Shown here: positions 44,147 to 59,913 of the stretch, in pieces
Position numbering within the stretch: the first letter of the stretch is position 1
Layout of the letters: the number at the start of each line of letters is the position of its first letter
DNA from: a virus
IMG/VR virus record: IMGVR_UViG_3300021478_000453
Location: 1-64,000 of that record
Length of the DNA stretch: 64,000 nucleotides
Direction: 5' to 3' (one strand)
Notes under the pieces: model-generated
Databases searched by the model: none
Seen by the model: only the letters and a program-made list of their open reading frames with translations
What the model was told of the DNA's origin: nothing
Program-made: the position numbers and the translations under genes

Positions 44147-44186
44147 TCTTGACGCCCTATCTGTACCTGTATAGCATTCGCATTGC
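44147..44186. promoter_or_regulatory. Divergent promoter between RHH and HNH genes
   Basis: 40 bp with TTGACG (44149-44154) and TATAGC (44170-44175) on the plus strand, 15 bp apart. On the minus strand the block TGCGAATGCTATAC (44169-44182), also found at 38385-38398, gives a second -10. The plus ATG at 44187 is almost leaderless. Confidence 0.5.
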
Positions 44187-44624
44187 ATGAGCCGCAAGAG
44201 GATATCGGACAGGACGAAACTCGCGGCGGCGCTGCTCGCCCGGGGGGATGTACCCTATGACCACGCCAAGTTGATGCACGAGGATCAGCTGATCAGCCTC
44301 TACCAATTCGACCACGGCATTCTGCACGAGACGGAGCACGAGGATCGCGACAAGTTTTGGAACATCGCACCGCTGCTGATCCGAACGCACCGTGCAAAGA
44401 CCAAGCTGGACCTGCGCGCAATCGCCAAGAGCCGGCGCCTTCGCAAGGCGCATGAGCAGTTTCGCAAGAGCTTTGCCATGATGGAGGCGTTTCAGCGCGA
44501 GGAGAACGAGAAGATCGCCGCGCGGATATTCAACGAGGGCATAACCCGCAAGATACGCTCGCGCGGCTTCGACAAGACGCGACGGCGCAAGATGGACGGC
44601 ACTGTGGAGAGCAGAAAGCGATGA
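44187..44624 (+). CDS. HNH-nuclease-like phage protein, 145 aa
   Basis: MHEDQLISLYQFDHGILHET, then HEDRDKFWNIAPLLIRTHRA, ending the core with KTKLDLRAIAKSRRLRK. The LYQFDHxxxH...N..PL...H..K..xD...IAKxRR series resembles a degenerate HNH motif common in Rhizobiales phages. Enzymatic activity is uncertain because the second His of HNH is not clear. Confidence 0.6.
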   Translation: MSRKRISDRTKLAAALLARGDVPYDHAKLMHEDQLISLYQFDHGILHETEHEDRDKFWNIAPLLIRTHRAKTKLDLRAIAKSRRLRKAHEQFRKSFAMMEAFQREENEKIAARIFNEGITRKIRSRGFDKTRRRKMDGTVESRKR

Positions 44625-45523
44625 CCGAATGGGATTGGTGGCAAGCGAGGCTCGCCGGCGAATTGGTGCCGATGCACCCCGATATACCACACGCCGGATT
44701 CTACCGAGAGCAATTCAAAGAGCACTACGGCGCGCGCAAGACGTTCATGCCGGTCGCATATTGGCCAGGTGACGATGGTCAGCTGTACTGCCGTATCGGC
44801 GACGAGGATGTATCTCCCGAGCGTGGGCAAGCCATCTGGACGCGCGTCGGCAATCATCCGGTCACCGAGGAAGCCTACCGTGAGGTTGCCGAGAAGGGCG
44901 GCCTATGGCCCGACGAGCATGAAGCGGTTGGGATGCAGGGCGACAACAAGCCGCCGGAGCCCGAGACCTTTGAGGAGATACGGGACGCGATCGAAGACCT
45001 GGCACGTGAAGCAGCCGAGCGCATCGAGGGGATGCCGATCGTTGACCAGGACGAGGCGAACCGGATCGCTAATCTCGCCGACCGGCTGGCCGAGCTGCAC
45101 AAGAGGGCCGAGGAACTCAAGAAGGCCGAGCGCAAGCCGCATACCGAGGCGCTGGAGGTCATTCAAAAGCGCTGGGCGCCGCTCCTCCTGCTCGCTGAGA
45201 CCTACAAGAACCTGAAGTACAAGCTGCTGACGCCGTGGCTGCGCAAGCTGGACACAGCCAAGAAGAAAGAGGCGGAGGCTGCAGCAGCGCAGGGCGAACC
45301 CCCGCCGGCTGAGACACCTCGGCCGCGCGCCGGCACGCGCGGTCGCGCTATGACGCTCAAGAGCACCAAGCGCGCCGAGATCACCGATTACGGTATGGCG
45401 CTCGCATTCTTCGCCGACAGCCCCGACGTGCGCCAGGTCGTACAGGATTTGGCAAACCGCGCCGCGCGTACCGGCATCACTGTGCCCGGCACCAAGATCA
45501 TCGAGGAGCAGCAGGCCGTGTAA
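44621..45523 (+). CDS. Hypothetical recombination-region protein, 300 aa
   Basis: ATGA overlap. W-W-Q-A-R-LAGELVPMHPDIPHAGFYR at the start, then a central coiled coil (IANLADRLAELHKRAEELKK) and a C-terminal domain with AEITDYGMALAFFADSPDVR. Adjacent to the alpha-CTD protein and the ERF gene; could be a recombination or ssDNA-binding accessory protein. Confidence 0.65.
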   Translation: MTEWDWWQARLAGELVPMHPDIPHAGFYREQFKEHYGARKTFMPVAYWPGDDGQLYCRIGDEDVSPERGQAIWTRVGNHPVTEEAYREVAEKGGLWPDEHEAVGMQGDNKPPEPETFEEIRDAIEDLAREAAERIEGMPIVDQDEANRIANLADRLAELHKRAEELKKAERKPHTEALEVIQKRWAPLLLLAETYKNLKYKLLTPWLRKLDTAKKKEAEAAAAQGEPPPAETPRPRAGTRGRAMTLKSTKRAEITDYGMALAFFADSPDVRQVVQDLANRAARTGITVPGTKIIEEQQAV

Positions 45524-46113
45524 TGAGCAACAATCTCGACACGCCGATTGACGAGCTTCCGATCGGGATACGGGTTTATAACTGTCTGAAAAACCAAAAC
45601 ATCGCGACAGTGGGAGACCTGCTGCAAAGAACGGAAGATGACCTGTTGCGGACGCCGAACTTCGCCGGCGTCTCGCTGAGAGAGCTTAAAAGCGTCCTTG
45701 ACTCGATGGGGCTTGAGCTTCCGCGGACCCCGCCTCCGGTTCCCGGCCCTACGTCATCGGGCAATCTACCGAGCTACATCGTGAAGGAAATCGATCGGGC
45801 AACTGCGCAATTCCGCAACAAGCGCGTCGGGATTGAGACACGCAGGTGGGCACAAAGGCAAAGCAAAGAGCAACGCGAGCGGCGCAAGAAGACCGGGAGC
45901 GAGCAATCCATCGCTATAGCAGAGAAACGCGCCATGTATCTGGAGCGCGATCGAATCATAGTGCTGCTGCGCGAGGCAGGCCAGACCTTCCGCTGGATTG
46001 GAAAGCTACTTTCAATCAGCAGCGCCCGTGCCAGCCAGATTTATTTCGTGACGAAGCGCCGCCAAGCACGTTTGAACATGTCGCCTGAAGCGCGCGACGC
46101 GAATCGACGTTAA
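45523..46113 (+). CDS. RNA polymerase alpha-CTD-like protein with HTH
   Basis: 196 aa, TAATG overlap. Residues 7-66 align with the alpha subunit C-terminal domain: DELPIGIRVYNCLKNQNIAT, then VGDLLQRTEDDLLRTPNF and SLRELKSVL. The DNA-contact residues of E. coli alpha (R265, N268, C269, K271, S299, E302) correspond to R17, N20, C21, K23, S51, E54; K298 is replaced by Val. The second half is basic and holds a possible HTH (about 140-180: RDRIIVLLREAGQTFRWIGK, then ISSARASQIYFV). It may bind promoters or host activators and redirect host polymerase. It is not an alpha subunit: there is no N-terminal dimerisation domain. Confidence 0.85.
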   Translation: MSNNLDTPIDELPIGIRVYNCLKNQNIATVGDLLQRTEDDLLRTPNFAGVSLRELKSVLDSMGLELPRTPPPVPGPTSSGNLPSYIVKEIDRATAQFRNKRVGIETRRWAQRQSKEQRERRKKTGSEQSIAIAEKRAMYLERDRIIVLLREAGQTFRWIGKLLSISSARASQIYFVTKRRQARLNMSPEARDANRR

Positions 46114-46138: not shown

Positions 46139-47251
46139 ATGAGCATGGAACAAGAACAGCCGCGGCGCCGGGTGCCGATGGTGCCGAGCCCGGGCAAGCA
46201 GCAGCCGATGCTGCGCCCGGGCGCAATCACCCCGGTTAAGGAAGAAGGGCGACACCCCCAGCTCTATGCGATTGGGCCGGTCGGCAACATCGGCAAGGCT
46301 ATCGCTACTGTCATGCGTGATGTTGGGACCATTCCCAAGAACGGTTACAACGCCTTTCACAAATACCATTACGTGAGGATGGAAGATTTGCTGCACGCCG
46401 TCACGCCGTTGATGGGTGCGGCCGGCATGGCGATCATCCAGAGTGAGGTAGACATCAAACAGGTCGAGAACCGCGTTGCTGTTACTTACGAGTTCACGAT
46501 CGTGCACGAGAGCGGTGAGACCTGGCCGCCAGCGCGCCAGACCGGCATGTCAAACGCTAGAGATTCCAAGGGAAACTGGGACGACAAGTGCCTCAACAAA
46601 TGCCACACCAGCGCGAGGAAGTATTTCCTTTCGGCCTTGTTCCAGGTTCCTGCCGGCGATTTTGACGATGCCGACGAGACCCCTCCTGAGAAGGCCGACG
46701 CGAATCGACGTGTGCCAGGGCCAGTTCAAAAGGAGCGGCTTCAATCTGCACCAGGAACTCGTGAGAGTGTACCTGGGCAATCGACCAAACCCACTGAGGT
46801 GGTGGGGCCGCACAAGATAAACCTCGGTCCCGGTGCCGGCGCCGACCAATGGGGCGGCGCGTACATACGCGCAATCGGCAAGGCGAAATCCAAGGACGAG
46901 ATCATCGCGTGGGACCAGGCCAACGATGCCACGCTGCAGATGCTGAGCGAGCAATTCCCCAAGGTCTACGAGATGCTGACGACAGCGGTGCAGAGCCGGC
47001 TTGCTGAGCTGGCGCCCGCCGATGTGCCTAGCGGGATGCCCGATCCGAAGACCGATGCGCAAGAGGCAATGAACTGGGCGGCATCGCAGCTCGCGCAGTT
47101 CCGGGAATACAAGGCCGCCGAGATGTTCTGGAACGAGTTCGTGGCTCCGCACGAGGGTGAGTTCGACGAAGTGGATTGGTCGATGCTGCTAGAGGAGTGG
47201 AAGCGCACCGAGAACCGGCTGGCACAAGACGACACAGGAGGGCAAGCATGA
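46139..47251 (+). CDS. erf: ERF-family single-strand annealing recombinase
   Basis: 370 aa. NIGKAIATVMRDVGTIPKNG, then YNAFHKYHYVRMEDLLHAV, GAAGMAIIQSEVDIKQVENR and YEFTIVHESGETWPPARQTG is the ERF core (about 43-175), which forms rings on single-stranded DNA and anneals complementary strands. The C-terminal 190 residues add a Pro linker and a helical region (QFREYKAAEMFWNEFVAPHE) that may bind partners. Near rusA-type genes, as expected for phage recombination. Confidence 0.85.
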   Translation: MSMEQEQPRRRVPMVPSPGKQQPMLRPGAITPVKEEGRHPQLYAIGPVGNIGKAIATVMRDVGTIPKNGYNAFHKYHYVRMEDLLHAVTPLMGAAGMAIIQSEVDIKQVENRVAVTYEFTIVHESGETWPPARQTGMSNARDSKGNWDDKCLNKCHTSARKYFLSALFQVPAGDFDDADETPPEKADANRRVPGPVQKERLQSAPGTRESVPGQSTKPTEVVGPHKINLGPGAGADQWGGAYIRAIGKAKSKDEIIAWDQANDATLQMLSEQFPKVYEMLTTAVQSRLAELAPADVPSGMPDPKTDAQEAMNWAASQLAQFREYKAAEMFWNEFVAPHEGEFDEVDWSMLLEEWKRTENRLAQDDTGGQA

Positions 47252-49408: not shown

Positions 49409-49996
49409 TTACTTCTTCGATGGCGTCGGCACGCCGGGATGCTCCGCCGACGGTACGATCGCCACCATCCAGCCGGTCTGTTCCGACCAAGCCGTCTTCA
49501 CGTCCCAGTTTTCCAAGATTTCAGGCTTTTGATCCGGCGGGCTGCCGGGCGGCGGCAGCACAATCGGATGAGTGGGCACGCCCGGCACTCCACTGCTTGG
49601 CGGAATGTAGATGGGATGCTCGGGCTTCAGCCCTGGAATAGTTCCCGGCGGCAGATAGATCGGTGGCGTCGGCATCGGCACGTTACCGCCGCCCCAGATG
49701 CCCGGAGGGCGTCCACCAGGCGCGATGGGATGCGACACCCAAGGCGGCGCGACACCGCCCCAATAGCCCGGAGGTGGACCACCGGGCGCGATCGGATGCG
49801 ATGGGTGCGGCGGTGCAACCCCACCCCAGTAACCGGGAGGAGGACCACCGGGCGCGATCGGATGCGTCGGCCACGGAGGCGCGACGCCGCCCCAATAGCC
49901 GGGCGGGGCGCCTGGCGACGGGGGCACCCACGGATGCGTCGGCGTGCCTCCGCCGCCGCCATCGAGAACAGTTATCAACGCAAGATATGTCGTCAT
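49409..49996 (-). CDS. Pro/Gly/Trp repeat protein
   Basis: 195 aa. Four copies of a unit of about 21 residues: PPGYWGGVAPPWPTHPIAPG and close variants (APPHPSHPIAPG, APPWVSHPIAPG, GIWGGGNVPMPTPPIYLP). The C-terminus is different (ENWDVKTAWSEQTGWMVAIV). Such PPGYWGGVAPP repeats recur in phages of Proteobacteria; a virion or lysis-related role has been suggested only by position. Confidence 0.75.
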   Translation of the reverse strand: MTTYLALITVLDGGGGGTPTHPWVPPSPGAPPGYWGGVAPPWPTHPIAPGGPPPGYWGGVAPPHPSHPIAPGGPPPGYWGGVAPPWVSHPIAPGGRPPGIWGGGNVPMPTPPIYLPPGTIPGLKPEHPIYIPPSSGVPGVPTHPIVLPPPGSPPDQKPEILENWDVKTAWSEQTGWMVAIVPSAEHPGVPTPSKK

Positions 49997-54804: not shown

Positions 54805-57800
54805 CTAGTAAACCTGCACCAGGCCGCCGACAGCGAAGGTCGGCTCGCGTCCCTCCGCTCGCGCCTTGTTGCGCTCCAACACCCGGCGCGCATTCAGCAT
54901 GTGACGCAGCTCATTCTGCTCCAGCTCCTTGACCAGATCATCCTTCTCTGCCGGTTCAAGATCGGTGCGAGCATTGATCGCGTCGGTCTGCTTCTGTAGC
55001 CCCTTGCGCGCCTTCTCCGTGTTCTTGAACGCTTCCGCGGCTCCCATCCCCGGCCCTGGCGTCTTGCGCTGGACCGCCGCATCGACCTCTTTCTTTGCCT
55101 CATAGTAGAGCTGCTTGTCGGCTTGCGGCTTTGGCTCACCGTAGAAGCGGCGCGCGAACGGGAACTTCTCCGGCACCCACTCCTGCCCCTGGTAGAGACG
55201 CGTGCCTGAGTTCCACATGTTGAGAGCGAAGCGCCCGAGGCCGCCGCTCGCGTAGCCCATCAGATAATCGATGTTGCCCGGAGCGGTATCGAGCAGCCCG
55301 GGTGTCGTCTTGGTGCCACCGGATAGCTCGTTGAGCTGCTTGGCAAAGCCCTGAGAGAATTGTGAGGTGCTTCTGAAAGGGCGCCGCTCGGACTCCGGCA
55401 AGTGTTTGTTCCAAGGCATGGCGTCCGGTCTGATCGGCGTGCCGAACGGCCCGACATTGGTGTAGAGCTGGACGGCAGGCTTCAAGAGCGTCGGGAAGAA
55501 ATGCGCCAAGCCCTGGTCTTGGCCTAGCGGATCGACAGCCTGCAGCATGTTCCAGCCGATCGCACTTGCCGTTTTGCCGAGGCTCTGCTGATCCCACATC
55601 CAGCTGGCGAGGTGCTCGCCCATGCCGGCGAACATGCCGAACACGAACGGCTTCGGGATCTTGGCGTAGCTGCCGCTCCCATCGGGAGACATCAGGATGA
55701 AATTGAGGTCCCGTTCCCATTCCGGGATCTTGGAATACTTCGACCGGCCGTCCTCGTCCGTGCCGCCAGCCATGATGTTATACATCGCGAGCGTCGCACC
55801 GCTCGCCGCCAGCCACGCTGCAGCCTTGCGCGCGCGAGGGCTCGTCTTGAGCGCCTGAGCTGATCGCACCGTTCCCTGCAAACCGGCATTGGCAAACATA
55901 TACAGGCCGGAGAGCCATCTCGCTTGGCCTCTGCGGTTGAAGTTGACCGTGCTCTCCCGTGCCATGAAGGCGGCTTTCCCCTCGCTCAAGCCGGCATCAA
56001 GCGCGGCGATGTAGACCGCCAGACGTGTTCCGTTCTCAACGCCGGTATTGGCGATATCGATAGCGTTGAGCGTCTTGTCCCTCCACTTCGCGAGCGTGTT
56101 GATGGTGCCGCCCTGCAGCCGTTGCAGCTGGCGTTGGACATCAGCGCCGGCTTCCTCCACCGTCCTCGCACCATAGAAGCCGATGCGACCGCCGGCTCGC
56201 TCGAACTCACGGAAATACTGCGCGTACTTGCCGCCGCCCGTGGGCCACTGTCCGTGCATCGCCCCGTACATCGCGCCCGGGAGGTTCTTGATAAAGCTCG
56301 CGCTGAATTTCCGCTGGGTGTCGCCAGGCAGATTGATGAATGCCTCGCCAGCGTCGCGGATAAAGTTCGACAACATGAACTCGGGGTTCCAGGAGGTCGA
56401 TAGCCTTGCCAGCAGGCGCGTCGTTCCACTAAGCGCGCGCATGACCACGTTCTGTCGGGGCTCGTCCAGGCTCTTTAGAGCACGCACGATCTTCGCGCCG
56501 TAATCCTTGTCGCTGAACCAAACTGATTTCTCTACGCCGTTCTCCTTCCAAGTGAAGGCTTGGTTATCGCTGCGCCAGTTAGGTTTAATTCTCTCCTCAA
56601 CTTGTCCTGTTTGCGTGTTGAGATATCTCTCCTTTGGACCTTGATTGTATTGCCACAGATCAGGCTCAGGAGTGTTGCGGACGAACTCACCAAGCGTTTG
56701 CCCTACGCGGTTGTGCTCGCCGCGGATGATGGCGCGCTCCAGCTGATGCACGGCAAACTGAATCGGATTTTCTGCCGGCGTGAGCCGTCCGAACGCCTGC
56801 TTATATTCTTTGCCCCGCACCTCCAGGCCCTTGCCGACGCCTATCCAGCGCTCGCCGGTCTCGGTGTGGCGCAGGGGCACATAATCCGGCCAGCGTTGCC
56901 GCCACGCCGCCGCCATCTGTGGGCTAAGCAGCCCGTCCCGCACCTGCATGTCGATGGTCGCGTCGATGAGCTTGCGCAGCGCAGTGTAGGCCGCATCGAA
57001 ATTGCCTTGGCGCGGGCGAGCGGCTGCCAAGATGCTTTGCGCAGCGGCATCACTCATGCCGGCCGGATCAGGAGAGAAGAGGTTGGGATTGATCCTGCGC
57101 AGGTCGCGATTGCGCTCCTGTGCATGCTTGGCCTTCGCATACTCGCCGATCTCATCCCACGTCAGACCGTTGCCGTTAATCTCCTTGACCAGCGGCTCGA
57201 TCAGATCGCGCTTGGCGTCGCGCATTCGCTTATCGATCTTGCCGTGAGACAGCGCCTCCGCCTGATAGGTGTCCATGTTCTCGGGAAGCGGCTGACCGGG
57301 ATTGTCGCGCAGCCACTGTTCTTGCATGCGCTTGATGCGCAGGAACTTGTCCTGGAGATACTCCCGGATCGCGGTCGGATTGATTTTGGTGCCACCGAGA
57401 TAGCCGGCAATCTTGGAAAGCGTGGAATGATTGTGCAGGATCAGCTTATCCGTGAGCACCTCGTCGGCAGCGTCGCGGATCAAAGGCTCGATTCCCGGTT
57501 CCCGTGGCTCGCCTTTCGGGCCGGTCGCTCTTTCATATCCCTTTTCTAGGATCGCTTCCTCAGTTCCAATCGGAAGTGGTTTGGTTTTAACGAGGCGCCC
57601 ACTACGACCACGCTTACCCTCACGCCGTAGCTTGCTGACAGGACGTCCAAATATATCAAGTTGCGCGGCCTCATCGCCAAACAACCCGACGTCCATGGGC
57701 TTCTGCGGTGCTTTGGGCTTGAGCGGTGCTTCAGCTTTGCGCTGTAGCATCCCCGCTACGTCGCGCTCAGTACCGGGGATGACCGCTTGCGGCTTGCCCT

Positions 57801-59913
57801 CAGCGCCGGGCTCGAACAAGCCACCAGGCTCCGCGGGCTTACGCGCCATCGCTTGGCGCTTAGGTACGGCAGCTAGGCCTTCTTGCGGGATTTCTTTTCG
57901 AGGAGGTTCGCCAGCCTCGCGAGCGCGCGATGGTTCTGCGCGTGCCGCAGGAAGCGCTTCTTCCACACGGGGTCCTGCTCCCGGTTCGCCTGGCGCAGGC
58001 ACCTCCTCGCCGCCTCTGCGCACTCCTGTGCGGTCCGCAAAATCCCGCTCCTCTCGTCTCACTACCGCCTGATCATAAGCCGCGACCGGATCAGTAGCCT
58101 CACCACGATAAAGCGAATCGGCCGCCTCGTACACCGCTTCGGGATCGACGTCGGCATCGCGGAAGCCAGCCTCTTTCATGCTGTCACGGACGCGCTGAGC
58201 GTTGGCCTCCATCTCCGGGGCGCGCTCGTCAGCTCGCGGCGGCGCGGCAGCCGCTTCCTCACCCCTCGGGATTTGCCTGACGCCCCGGTTCTCGTTGTCG
58301 ATCGCGTCTAGCAGGTCGCGGATGGTGGTGGTGCGCGGGACGTTCTGCTGCCAGAAGCCGGGGTCCTCGATGTAACGGCCCTCGACCGCGTTCTCCAGGA
58401 TGCGATCGAGCGGCCTGCCATTCTCCCGGATGAGTGAGCCATAGCCGGGAATGAGCTTGTTCTTCTTGCCGATGATGGCACGCACGTCGGCGACCATCGG
58501 ATCCTTGGCGCTGATGCCGCCGTTCATGGCGATGAACTGGAGGAGCGATTGCGGCTGCTTCTCTTTCCTGGTCCTGCGCGCGAGCGGCTCTGCCGGCGCA
58601 GCGGGCGCTGCCGGCTCCTGCGCGCGAGGCCGCTCTGCCGGGGGCTCGGCAGGTCTCGCCTCCTCCGGTATGCGCTCGGTCACCCACGCCGGCGGCTCGC
58701 CTGTGATGTCATCGAAAAGCCCGGCGGGCCGCTCAGGAGGAGCGGCGCGCTCGGGTACACGGGGCTCCGCGGGAGCCACTGAAACCTCTGGCGGCGTCGG
58801 GGTCGGGGCCGACGGTGCCGGGGGCTCAGCTCGTGTCGGCTCCCGCGGAATCTCTGGTCTGACACGAGGCGCCGGCCCGCGCACCGCTTCTGGCGCTGCA
58901 GGCGGCTCGCCCTCGCCACCTCGAATCATCCAATCGAACAGGTCAGGAGGCACCCCCGGCGTCGGGGGTGGGGGGGCCCCAGCTTGGGGCGGCTCAGCTG
59001 GTGCAGCAGGTGTTTCACCAGGCTTTTGCGTCACCTCCTCCGCAGGAGGGGTAGGTGAAGCCGAAGGTGGCTCGGCAGGCGGCTCAGCTGGAGGTGCCTC
59101 CGGGACCTTGGCTTCACCCTTCAGCTTGTCTCGAACCGCTCGGATACCCCTGGTGACGCCCTTGGCTCCAATCACGGGAACCGCACCGGCAAGGCCCCCT
59201 AACAGGGCCTCCTCAATGCCCTCTGTCAGTGGCCTGCCGGCGAGGTAGTTCTGGATAACCAGCTCGCCGGCGCCGACGGTCGGCTGCAGCAGGACCTGCT
59301 TGAGAACCGTCAGCGGCACACCGAACGAGGCGCCCGTTGCAGCCGCCGACACGCCGGAACTTTTCAGAGCCGCCCGGAGCGCCTGGTCCTCGGGCATCCC
59401 CGCATCCACGTTCTCGCGAAACCGCGGACCGTAATCGGTGACGAACTGCGACAGAGCACCCCCGCCGATCTCTCCCAGCAAACCGAAGGCAGCACCGCCG
59501 CTAACGGCACCGATCGCTGCCGGCGCGCTGCGTCCCAGCATGTAGCCGGCCCAGGACGGAAACTTTTCCCCGCTCGTCAGGGCCTCGGACGGCTTGATCT
59601 CCTCCACTCTGGGATCGCCGATCGTCTCCGTCGGCTCGGCCATCGGCTGCCCACGCAGCCGATTGAGCATGTCCTCGGCGGTCTCGGCACCGCCTCGCAG
59701 CGTGGTCCCGAGTCCCTGTATTACGGATTCCCCAAAGCCCGGGAGCGGGCGCTCAGGCGCTGCCTCGCCCTGGCGCACGAAGCGCGTCACGGGTGTCGAA
59801 GGTCCGCGCGGCGGCTCGGGCTCGGGTTCAGGCTGTGGCGCGGTGATATCGTCAAAGAGGCCGCCACTCGGCTGACCTCCGGCGATATCGGAGAAGAGGC
59901 CGTCATCGGCCAT
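54805..59913 (-). CDS. Large polyvalent protein with LPD38-type C-terminus
   Basis: 1702 aa. The N-terminal part carries recurring GLFDDI motifs (GLFSDI at 5-10, GLFDDI at 18-23 and 398-403, and DLFDWMIRGG near 324), separated by hydrophobic Ala/Gly helices (120-260) and long Pro/Glu/Ala linkers. About 456-545 holds SLLQFIAMNGGISAKDPMVA and IIGKKNKLIPGYGSLIRENG, a small module of polyvalent proteins. The C-terminal 450 residues match LPD38 (FMLSNFIRDAGEAFINLPGD, then NFNRRGQARWLSGLYMFANA). Such giant proteins travel in the virion and are injected; the domains act on the host or its membrane. No catalytic motif is certain. Confidence 0.75.
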   Translation of the reverse strand: MADDGLFSDIAGGQPSGGLFDDITAPQPEPEPEPPRGPSTPVTRFVRQGEAAPERPLPGFGESVIQGLGTTLRGGAETAEDMLNRLRGQPMAEPTETIGDPRVEEIKPSEALTSGEKFPSWAGYMLGRSAPAAIGAVSGGAAFGLLGEIGGGALSQFVTDYGPRFRENVDAGMPEDQALRAALKSSGVSAAATGASFGVPLTVLKQVLLQPTVGAGELVIQNYLAGRPLTEGIEEALLGGLAGAVPVIGAKGVTRGIRAVRDKLKGEAKVPEAPPAEPPAEPPSASPTPPAEEVTQKPGETPAAPAEPPQAGAPPPPTPGVPPDLFDWMIRGGEGEPPAAPEAVRGPAPRVRPEIPREPTRAEPPAPSAPTPTPPEVSVAPAEPRVPERAAPPERPAGLFDDITGEPPAWVTERIPEEARPAEPPAERPRAQEPAAPAAPAEPLARRTRKEKQPQSLLQFIAMNGGISAKDPMVADVRAIIGKKNKLIPGYGSLIRENGRPLDRILENAVEGRYIEDPGFWQQNVPRTTTIRDLLDAIDNENRGVRQIPRGEEAAAAPPRADERAPEMEANAQRVRDSMKEAGFRDADVDPEAVYEAADSLYRGEATDPVAAYDQAVVRREERDFADRTGVRRGGEEVPAPGEPGAGPRVEEALPAARAEPSRAREAGEPPRKEIPQEGLAAVPKRQAMARKPAEPGGLFEPGAEGKPQAVIPGTERDVAGMLQRKAEAPLKPKAPQKPMDVGLFGDEAAQLDIFGRPVSKLRREGKRGRSGRLVKTKPLPIGTEEAILEKGYERATGPKGEPREPGIEPLIRDAADEVLTDKLILHNHSTLSKIAGYLGGTKINPTAIREYLQDKFLRIKRMQEQWLRDNPGQPLPENMDTYQAEALSHGKIDKRMRDAKRDLIEPLVKEINGNGLTWDEIGEYAKAKHAQERNRDLRRINPNLFSPDPAGMSDAAAQSILAAARPRQGNFDAAYTALRKLIDATIDMQVRDGLLSPQMAAAWRQRWPDYVPLRHTETGERWIGVGKGLEVRGKEYKQAFGRLTPAENPIQFAVHQLERAIIRGEHNRVGQTLGEFVRNTPEPDLWQYNQGPKERYLNTQTGQVEERIKPNWRSDNQAFTWKENGVEKSVWFSDKDYGAKIVRALKSLDEPRQNVVMRALSGTTRLLARLSTSWNPEFMLSNFIRDAGEAFINLPGDTQRKFSASFIKNLPGAMYGAMHGQWPTGGGKYAQYFREFERAGGRIGFYGARTVEEAGADVQRQLQRLQGGTINTLAKWRDKTLNAIDIANTGVENGTRLAVYIAALDAGLSEGKAAFMARESTVNFNRRGQARWLSGLYMFANAGLQGTVRSAQALKTSPRARKAAAWLAASGATLAMYNIMAGGTDEDGRSKYSKIPEWERDLNFILMSPDGSGSYAKIPKPFVFGMFAGMGEHLASWMWDQQSLGKTASAIGWNMLQAVDPLGQDQGLAHFFPTLLKPAVQLYTNVGPFGTPIRPDAMPWNKHLPESERRPFRSTSQFSQGFAKQLNELSGGTKTTPGLLDTAPGNIDYLMGYASGGLGRFALNMWNSGTRLYQGQEWVPEKFPFARRFYGEPKPQADKQLYYEAKKEVDAAVQRKTPGPGMGAAEAFKNTEKARKGLQKQTDAINARTDLEPAEKDDLVKELEQNELRHMLNARRVLERNKARAEGREPTFAVGGLVQVY

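Follow-up and report, generated by a model that had tools for sequence, protein, structure and literature searches.

What use might a phage have for the C-terminal domain of a bacterial RNA polymerase alpha subunit (alpha-CTD) when the domain sits in a protein that lacks the alpha N-terminal domain (alpha-NTD)? The question is raised by a 196-residue protein encoded in the 64,000-nucleotide stretch of viral DNA analysed here (the window), which an earlier note had described as an N-terminal alpha-CTD joined to a possible helix-turn-helix (HTH). The reading we favour, to which we give a probability of about one half, is that this fusion protein is a promoter-proximal, site-specific phage DNA-binding transcription regulator working on host RNA polymerase.

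Layout of the gene and its phage setting

The open reading frame, its coordinates and its N-terminal alpha-CTD are all as the earlier note had them, and the ATG shares one base with the stop codon of the upstream 300-codon frame (TAATG). In an AlphaFold2 model built from the window protein and one homologue, residues 7-66 form four helices in an arrangement resembling that of an alpha-CTD (pLDDT ~85), residues 71-82 are a disordered linker, two long helices span 84-119 and 125-151, and a confident HTH follows at 156-184 (helices 156-163 and 167-184, pLDDT ~90). The alpha-NTD (PF01193) is found neither in the protein nor elsewhere in the phage record, in a search that was positive for control genomes, and so the absence of this domain, already pointed out in the earlier note, holds for the entire record. 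A Pfam scan of the protein returned no sigma region besides region 4 and hence no region 2, the region of −10 recognition and core binding. Lacking an alpha-NTD and any other sigma region, the protein is neither a full alpha subunit (RpoA) nor a full sigma factor.

Table 1. The fusion gene, its parts and its operon neighbours, in window coordinates.
Feature	Position	Strand	Evidence or remark
Sigma70-type promoter-like site before operon, TTGACG-17-TAGCAT	44149..44177	+	Consensus scan; suggestive only
First operon ORF, 145 aa	44187..44624	+	Homologue adjoins fusion gene in L025
300-aa ORF, exonuclease-labelled phage family phrog_10477	44621..45523	+	60% identical homologue in L025
Alpha-CTD/sigma4-like HTH fusion gene	45523..46113	+	196 aa; ORF, Pfam and AlphaFold model
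RNA polymerase alpha-CTD, residues 7-66	45541..45720	+	PF03118 E 8e-18; Foldseek 0.6-0.8 Å to alpha-CTDs
Pro-rich flexible linker, residues 67-82	45721..45768	+	pLDDT <50 at 71-82; 19% identity to L025 homologue
Long basic helices, possible coiled coil, residues 83-151	45769..45975	+	Helices 84-119 and 125-151; net charge +9
Probable sigma70 region 4-like helix-turn-helix, residues 152-184	45976..46074	+	Profile matches and model superposition
ERF-type single-strand annealing protein	46139..47251	+	PF04404 E 3e-18; 57% identical in L025

The phage carries genes for a terminase, portal, endolysin, helicase, methyltransferase and ERF protein and looks podovirus-like; its portal is closest to that of an uncultured 61-kb phage and, farther off, to those of Roseobacter, Pelagibacter and Caulobacter phages. 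Its host is probably an alphaproteobacterium. No match to a T7-type polymerase was obtained in the phage (a search run without a positive control), no RNA family or tRNA was found, and the direct repeats that we examined yielded no candidate binding site. The promoter-like site ahead of the operon is the only consensus match between 43 and 50 kb, where 1.5 would be expected by chance, and because its −10 hexamer ends about ten bases ahead of the first ATG, operon transcripts could be leaderless. Elsewhere in the window, on the minus strand, positions 49409-49996 encode a small Pro/Gly-rich protein in which a 66-bp repeat (PPGYWGGVAPPxPTHPIAPGG) occurs about three times, and positions 54805-59913 encode a 1702-residue protein with matches, over its C-terminal half, to very large proteins of phages (phrog_14770 and phrog_616).

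The fusion protein has a full-length homologue, with 52% identity across 180 residues, on a 70-kb IMG/VR contig (L025) that shares the neighbourhood: identity is 57% for the ERF protein, 60% for the 300-residue protein, 68% for the helicase and 75% for the methyltransferase. Within the fusion protein conservation is uneven: the second long helix is 70% identical, the alpha-CTD 55%, the HTH 48% and the linker 19%. Gene order in L025 is shifted by one place, with the fusion gene standing before the 308-residue gene. Scans for close relatives with the single protein and with the alignment returned one phage homologue (L025/L046), and from genomes only RpoA or non-homologous fusions; PHROGs holds no alpha-CTD family that matches the fusion protein. 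A further contig of 27.5 kb with portal and terminase genes (L007) encodes a protein with an N-terminal alpha-CTD and a weak C-terminal HTH. The tblastn matches in INPHARED were rejected as relatives, two of them (MT835508 and MT836419) being full rpoA genes, likely from bacterial contamination, and others being annotated rpoA, and the plasmid matches, judged from the match table, resembled rpoA on large replicons.

Since the gene lies among recombination genes, a role outside transcription is permitted: the protein might be a DNA binder of the recombination module, its alpha-CTD serving merely as a helix-hairpin-helix grip on DNA. Its position between a member of an exonuclease-labelled family and an ERF annealing protein speaks for such a role, and alpha-CTDs elsewhere are joined to unrelated partners such as the Ruegeria phage 'pyrophosphatase' and an AAA+-like bacterial protein. 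We nevertheless hold this to be unlikely, given that the gene and its neighbour stand in a different order in L025 and that phage alpha-CTDs are repeatedly paired with sigma4-like HTHs specifically, as described below.

The alpha-CTD and the probable sigma region 4-like module

PF03118 covers residues 3-60 of the fusion protein (E 8e-18, 64.4 bits against a gathering cut-off of 23.8), and this is the only match to the family in the 65,448-bp viral record. The top phmmer matches in the PDB are RNA polymerase alpha subunits, down to 4.8e-17, the first two being Caulobacter entries, and Foldseek superimposes the N-terminal part of the model on alpha-CTD structures at 0.6-0.8 Å over 62 residues. 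CAP-bound and DNA-bound structures are among these, and the first match is the Caulobacter alpha-CTD on AT-rich DNA. The predicted fold thus agrees with the one proposed in the earlier note, the E value together with the model superposition rules out a chance resemblance, and by profile and predicted structure the N-terminal module is a genuine RNA polymerase alpha-CTD.

Residues were numbered by an E. coli alpha-CTD sequence that we assume to be correct; the Caulobacter sequence was taken from the phmmer alignment to the PDB. In this numbering R265, N268, C269, K271, S299 and E302 are kept (R17, N20, C21, K23, S51 and E54 of the phage protein), while G296 is changed to Ala48, K298 to Val50 and E261 to proline. 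From the E. coli alpha literature we take G296 and K298 to contact DNA and E261 to meet sigma region 4. Four of the six residues in the DNA-contact set (R265, N268, G296, K298, S299, E302) are therefore retained, which falls short of the full set. Where the earlier note listed R, N, C, K, S and E as kept contact residues, R, N, C, S and E stand, and the lysine does not: the one kept is K271, and the contact lysine K298 is lost. At the K298 position L025 has Ala and L007 has Leu, and proline occupies the E261 position in L025 as well. Compared with bacterial RpoA, of which the nearest examined is that of Caulobacter, the module shares the fold, about 55% identity and the equivalents of R265, C269, N268, S299 and E302; it differs in the three substitutions, in the missing alpha-NTD and in standing at the N-terminus of another protein. 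The G296 and K298 changes may weaken DNA binding and the proline alters the known contact surface between alpha-CTD and sigma region 4, so that the protein need not be a straightforward competitor for every UP element. R265 and N268 of the alpha-CTD have been found critical for DNA binding (PMC11434276).

The surface of the alpha-CTD that faces activators is present in the equivalents of T285, E286 and E288 (the last being Asp in the window protein and Glu in L025). The HTH could bind DNA ahead of middle or late promoters of the phage while this surface recruits host sigma region 4, alpha or a host activator. An early-region gene would suit such a tether, as would a phage without a match to a T7-type polymerase, which must redirect the host enzyme. 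An alpha-CTD without an alpha-NTD, however, has no covalent link to polymerase, and the residue at the E261 position is proline; recruitment of this kind is somewhat improbable in our estimate.

At the other end of the protein, the HTH that the earlier note had called possible is present in the model and appears sigma70 region 4-like by profile and by model. Single-family matches are weak: Pfam Sigma70_r4 (PF04545) gives E 0.026 and 14.5 bits against a cut-off of 24.1, and an NCBIfam sigma70-ECF model gives 0.0086. When PF04545 was run over the whole phage genome and its L025 relative, the fusion gene was the sole match in each, below the curated cut-off (16.0 bits). When a profile built from two HTH sequences was run against the whole PDB, the top five distinct sequences, at E values from 0.0013 to 0.072, were sigma factors, with FliA (E 0.0013) and WhiG (0.014) among them, and hhalign scored the HTH against a sigma4 alignment at E 2e-5. 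A model of the HTH on its own lies on sigma region 4 chains, at 0.7 Å over 47 residues for 3n97 chain A, with Foldseek E values above 0.3 that are not significant for a short all-helical piece in a PDB redundant in Thermus sigma. The 3n97 entry is a crystal structure of an alpha-CTD and sigma4 bound to UP/−35 DNA, and both halves of the fusion protein thus match chains of one complex.

The likeness to sigma70 region 4 extends to the HTH architecture and to the R586/Q589-type positions, with the Q589 position retained. It stops at the equivalents of R584 and E585, which we take to be the −35-reading residues of sigma70: these are Ser and Ala in the window protein and Gly and Asn in L025, and reading of the host −35 box by the HTH is therefore unlikely. 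On these comparisons the HTH appears region 4-like with, probably, a target sequence different from the host −35 box.

These residues also bear on whether the protein might coat the UP and −35 regions of host promoters and so shut off host transcription, a shut-off that T4 ModA brings about by chemical means. The R265 and N268 equivalents are retained, and most clear sigma4/alpha-CTD fusions of other phages keep the −35-reading residues, which are largely intact in L038 and L093. In phage T4, AsiA and MotA appropriate sigma, and the same alpha surface is attacked by Alt and ModA, which modify R265, ModA doing so by ADP-ribosylation (PMC2988021). The R584 and E585 equivalents of the window protein and L025, together with the changes at K298 and G296, weigh against such general coating, which we judge improbable. 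The likeness of T4 to the role we favour, site-specific regulation at promoters, is that host polymerase is controlled through sigma4 and alpha-CTD contacts; the difference is that T4 uses unrelated proteins and enzymes and not captured polymerase modules.

Recurrence of the module pair among phages

Using degenerate DNA patterns and local HMM searches we assembled 89 distinct alpha-CTD domains, about 80 of which lie in phage proteins other than RpoA. The patterns fixed or limited R, N, C, K271, G279 and the D/E280 position; N294, G296, S299 and E302 were left free in the first patterns and are mostly retained across the proteins gathered with these. By identity to five reference alpha-CTDs the phage domains sit near different bacterial groups, a spread that, as an identity comparison and not a phylogeny, fits several separate captures.

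At least 12 of the non-RpoA phage proteins contain a sigma4-like HTH at E 1e-3 or better by local HMM (L022, L027, L030, L037, L038, L058, L069, L082, L086, L091, L093 and L100). Three of them, L027, L030 and L038, were among the sequences from which that HMM was built, so that their scores with it are circular; these three lie above the Pfam cut-offs for both PF03118 and PF04545, and in L038, L069, L091 and L093 NCBIfam sigma-factor and RpoA models match separate parts of the protein. In these proteins the alpha-CTD is the last module, the reverse of the window order, and several of the genes have neighbours that encode phage terminases, portals, polymerases, primases or integrases. Among 196 bacterial genomes belonging to a single order, searched without a positive control, no close relative of a reverse-order fusion was found at E 1e-24.

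When the HTH profile of the window protein and L025 was run against 7,993 frames, the two family members were followed by L011, L024, L086, L076, L082, L091 and L038. All seven are alpha-CTD proteins, with only the first two or three individually significant. The frames come from loci chosen for their alpha-CTDs; with dozens of frames per locus, retrieval of alpha-CTD proteins by the HTH alone exceeds a selection effect. Since this HTH-only search returns proteins of reverse order, the module pair seems to exist in both orders.

Phage alpha-CTDs outside RpoA have been annotated before, in uncultured Caudovirales entries of BFVD, in Bacillus phage Goe8_c00050 and in Microbacterium phage Mazun gp26, and ORF40 of Erythrobacter phage vB_EliS-L02 has already been named as an alpha-CTD protein (PMC9127768). 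Unlike the window protein, the examples from cultured phages that we scanned gave no sigma4 match. A literature search, outside which lay most subscription journals and bioRxiv preprints, returned no functional study of phage alpha-CTD proteins and no description of an alpha-CTD/sigma4 fusion. Phage alpha-CTD proteins are thus known from databases and from at least one phage paper.

The searches brought up several other arrangements. Two neighbouring alpha-CTD genes lie at L011:9289-10317, the first encoding an HTH and alpha-CTD protein and the second, directly after it, a protein whose alpha-CTD follows an N-terminal part that looks like a remnant. The proteins of L012 (6047-6529), L010, L016, L018 and L081 are shrunken alpha subunits; L012 has a weak alpha-NTD dimerisation piece ahead of its alpha-CTD (RNA_pol_L, E 3e-4), and the alignment of L010 to RpoA spans most of its length. 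In Lachnospiraceae MAG proteins (L050:5080-7047 and L051:5167-7047) a mid-protein alpha-CTD is followed by an AAA+-like ATPase region, a bacterial case outside RpoA, and gp23 of Ruegeria phage vB_RpoS-V16 (L057:1923-2786) joins an alpha-CTD to a C-terminal region named pyrophosphatase in RefSeq. INPHARED entries MT835508.1 and MT836419.1, labelled Bacteriophage sp., each have an rplQ-like frame after the full bacterial rpoA, and are likely bacterial contamination. Finally, positions 795-896 of the NCBIfam model for the BREX kinase PglW (NF033442) weakly match residues 4-105 of the window protein (E 2e-4), which suggests that this defence protein contains a domain resembling an alpha-CTD.

A proposed action at host-polymerase promoters

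The reading of the fusion protein as a site-specific regulator is built on the two folds (by prediction and homology), the co-occurrence of the modules across phages, the operon position and the missing alpha-NTD; from these we infer DNA binding, site specificity and an effect on polymerase that may be activating or repressive. One polypeptide would supply two module types that the host holoenzyme uses for reading upstream promoter DNA, and the presence of two DNA-facing holoenzyme modules in one early-region protein points to action at promoters of the host polymerase. The sigma4-like HTH would pick the site. Its recognition-helix residues differ from the host −35-reading ones, so this site is probably phage-specific; with the helix altered in this way, particular sites, perhaps those of the phage, are favoured over host −35 boxes at large. 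The alpha-CTD, tethered through the flexible linker and the long basic helices, would grip adjacent minor-groove DNA and show its alpha-CTD surface. At a target promoter the protein would then occupy or reshape the region from about −30 to −60, which serves the sigma4 and alpha-CTD of the host, and the promoter would be switched off, or polymerase access changed, during the early programme.

Counted in favour are the alpha-CTD matches, the region 4-like HTH, the recurrence of the pair and a homologue in which the domains are kept while the linker has diverged. Counted against are the G296 to Ala, K298 to Val and E261 to Pro changes and the Pfam score of the HTH below its cut-off; the missing E261 and K298 equivalents speak against the protein imitating host alpha-CTD faithfully. 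A broader proposition, which we put forward tentatively, is that phages have repeatedly captured both modules, alpha-CTD and sigma region 4, and joined them, in one order or the other, into stand-alone mimics of polymerase modules that re-address the host enzyme. The recurrent pairing suggests a widespread phage route for rewiring host transcription. If this is confirmed, phages would control promoter recognition with captured pieces of host polymerase and not with unrelated proteins.
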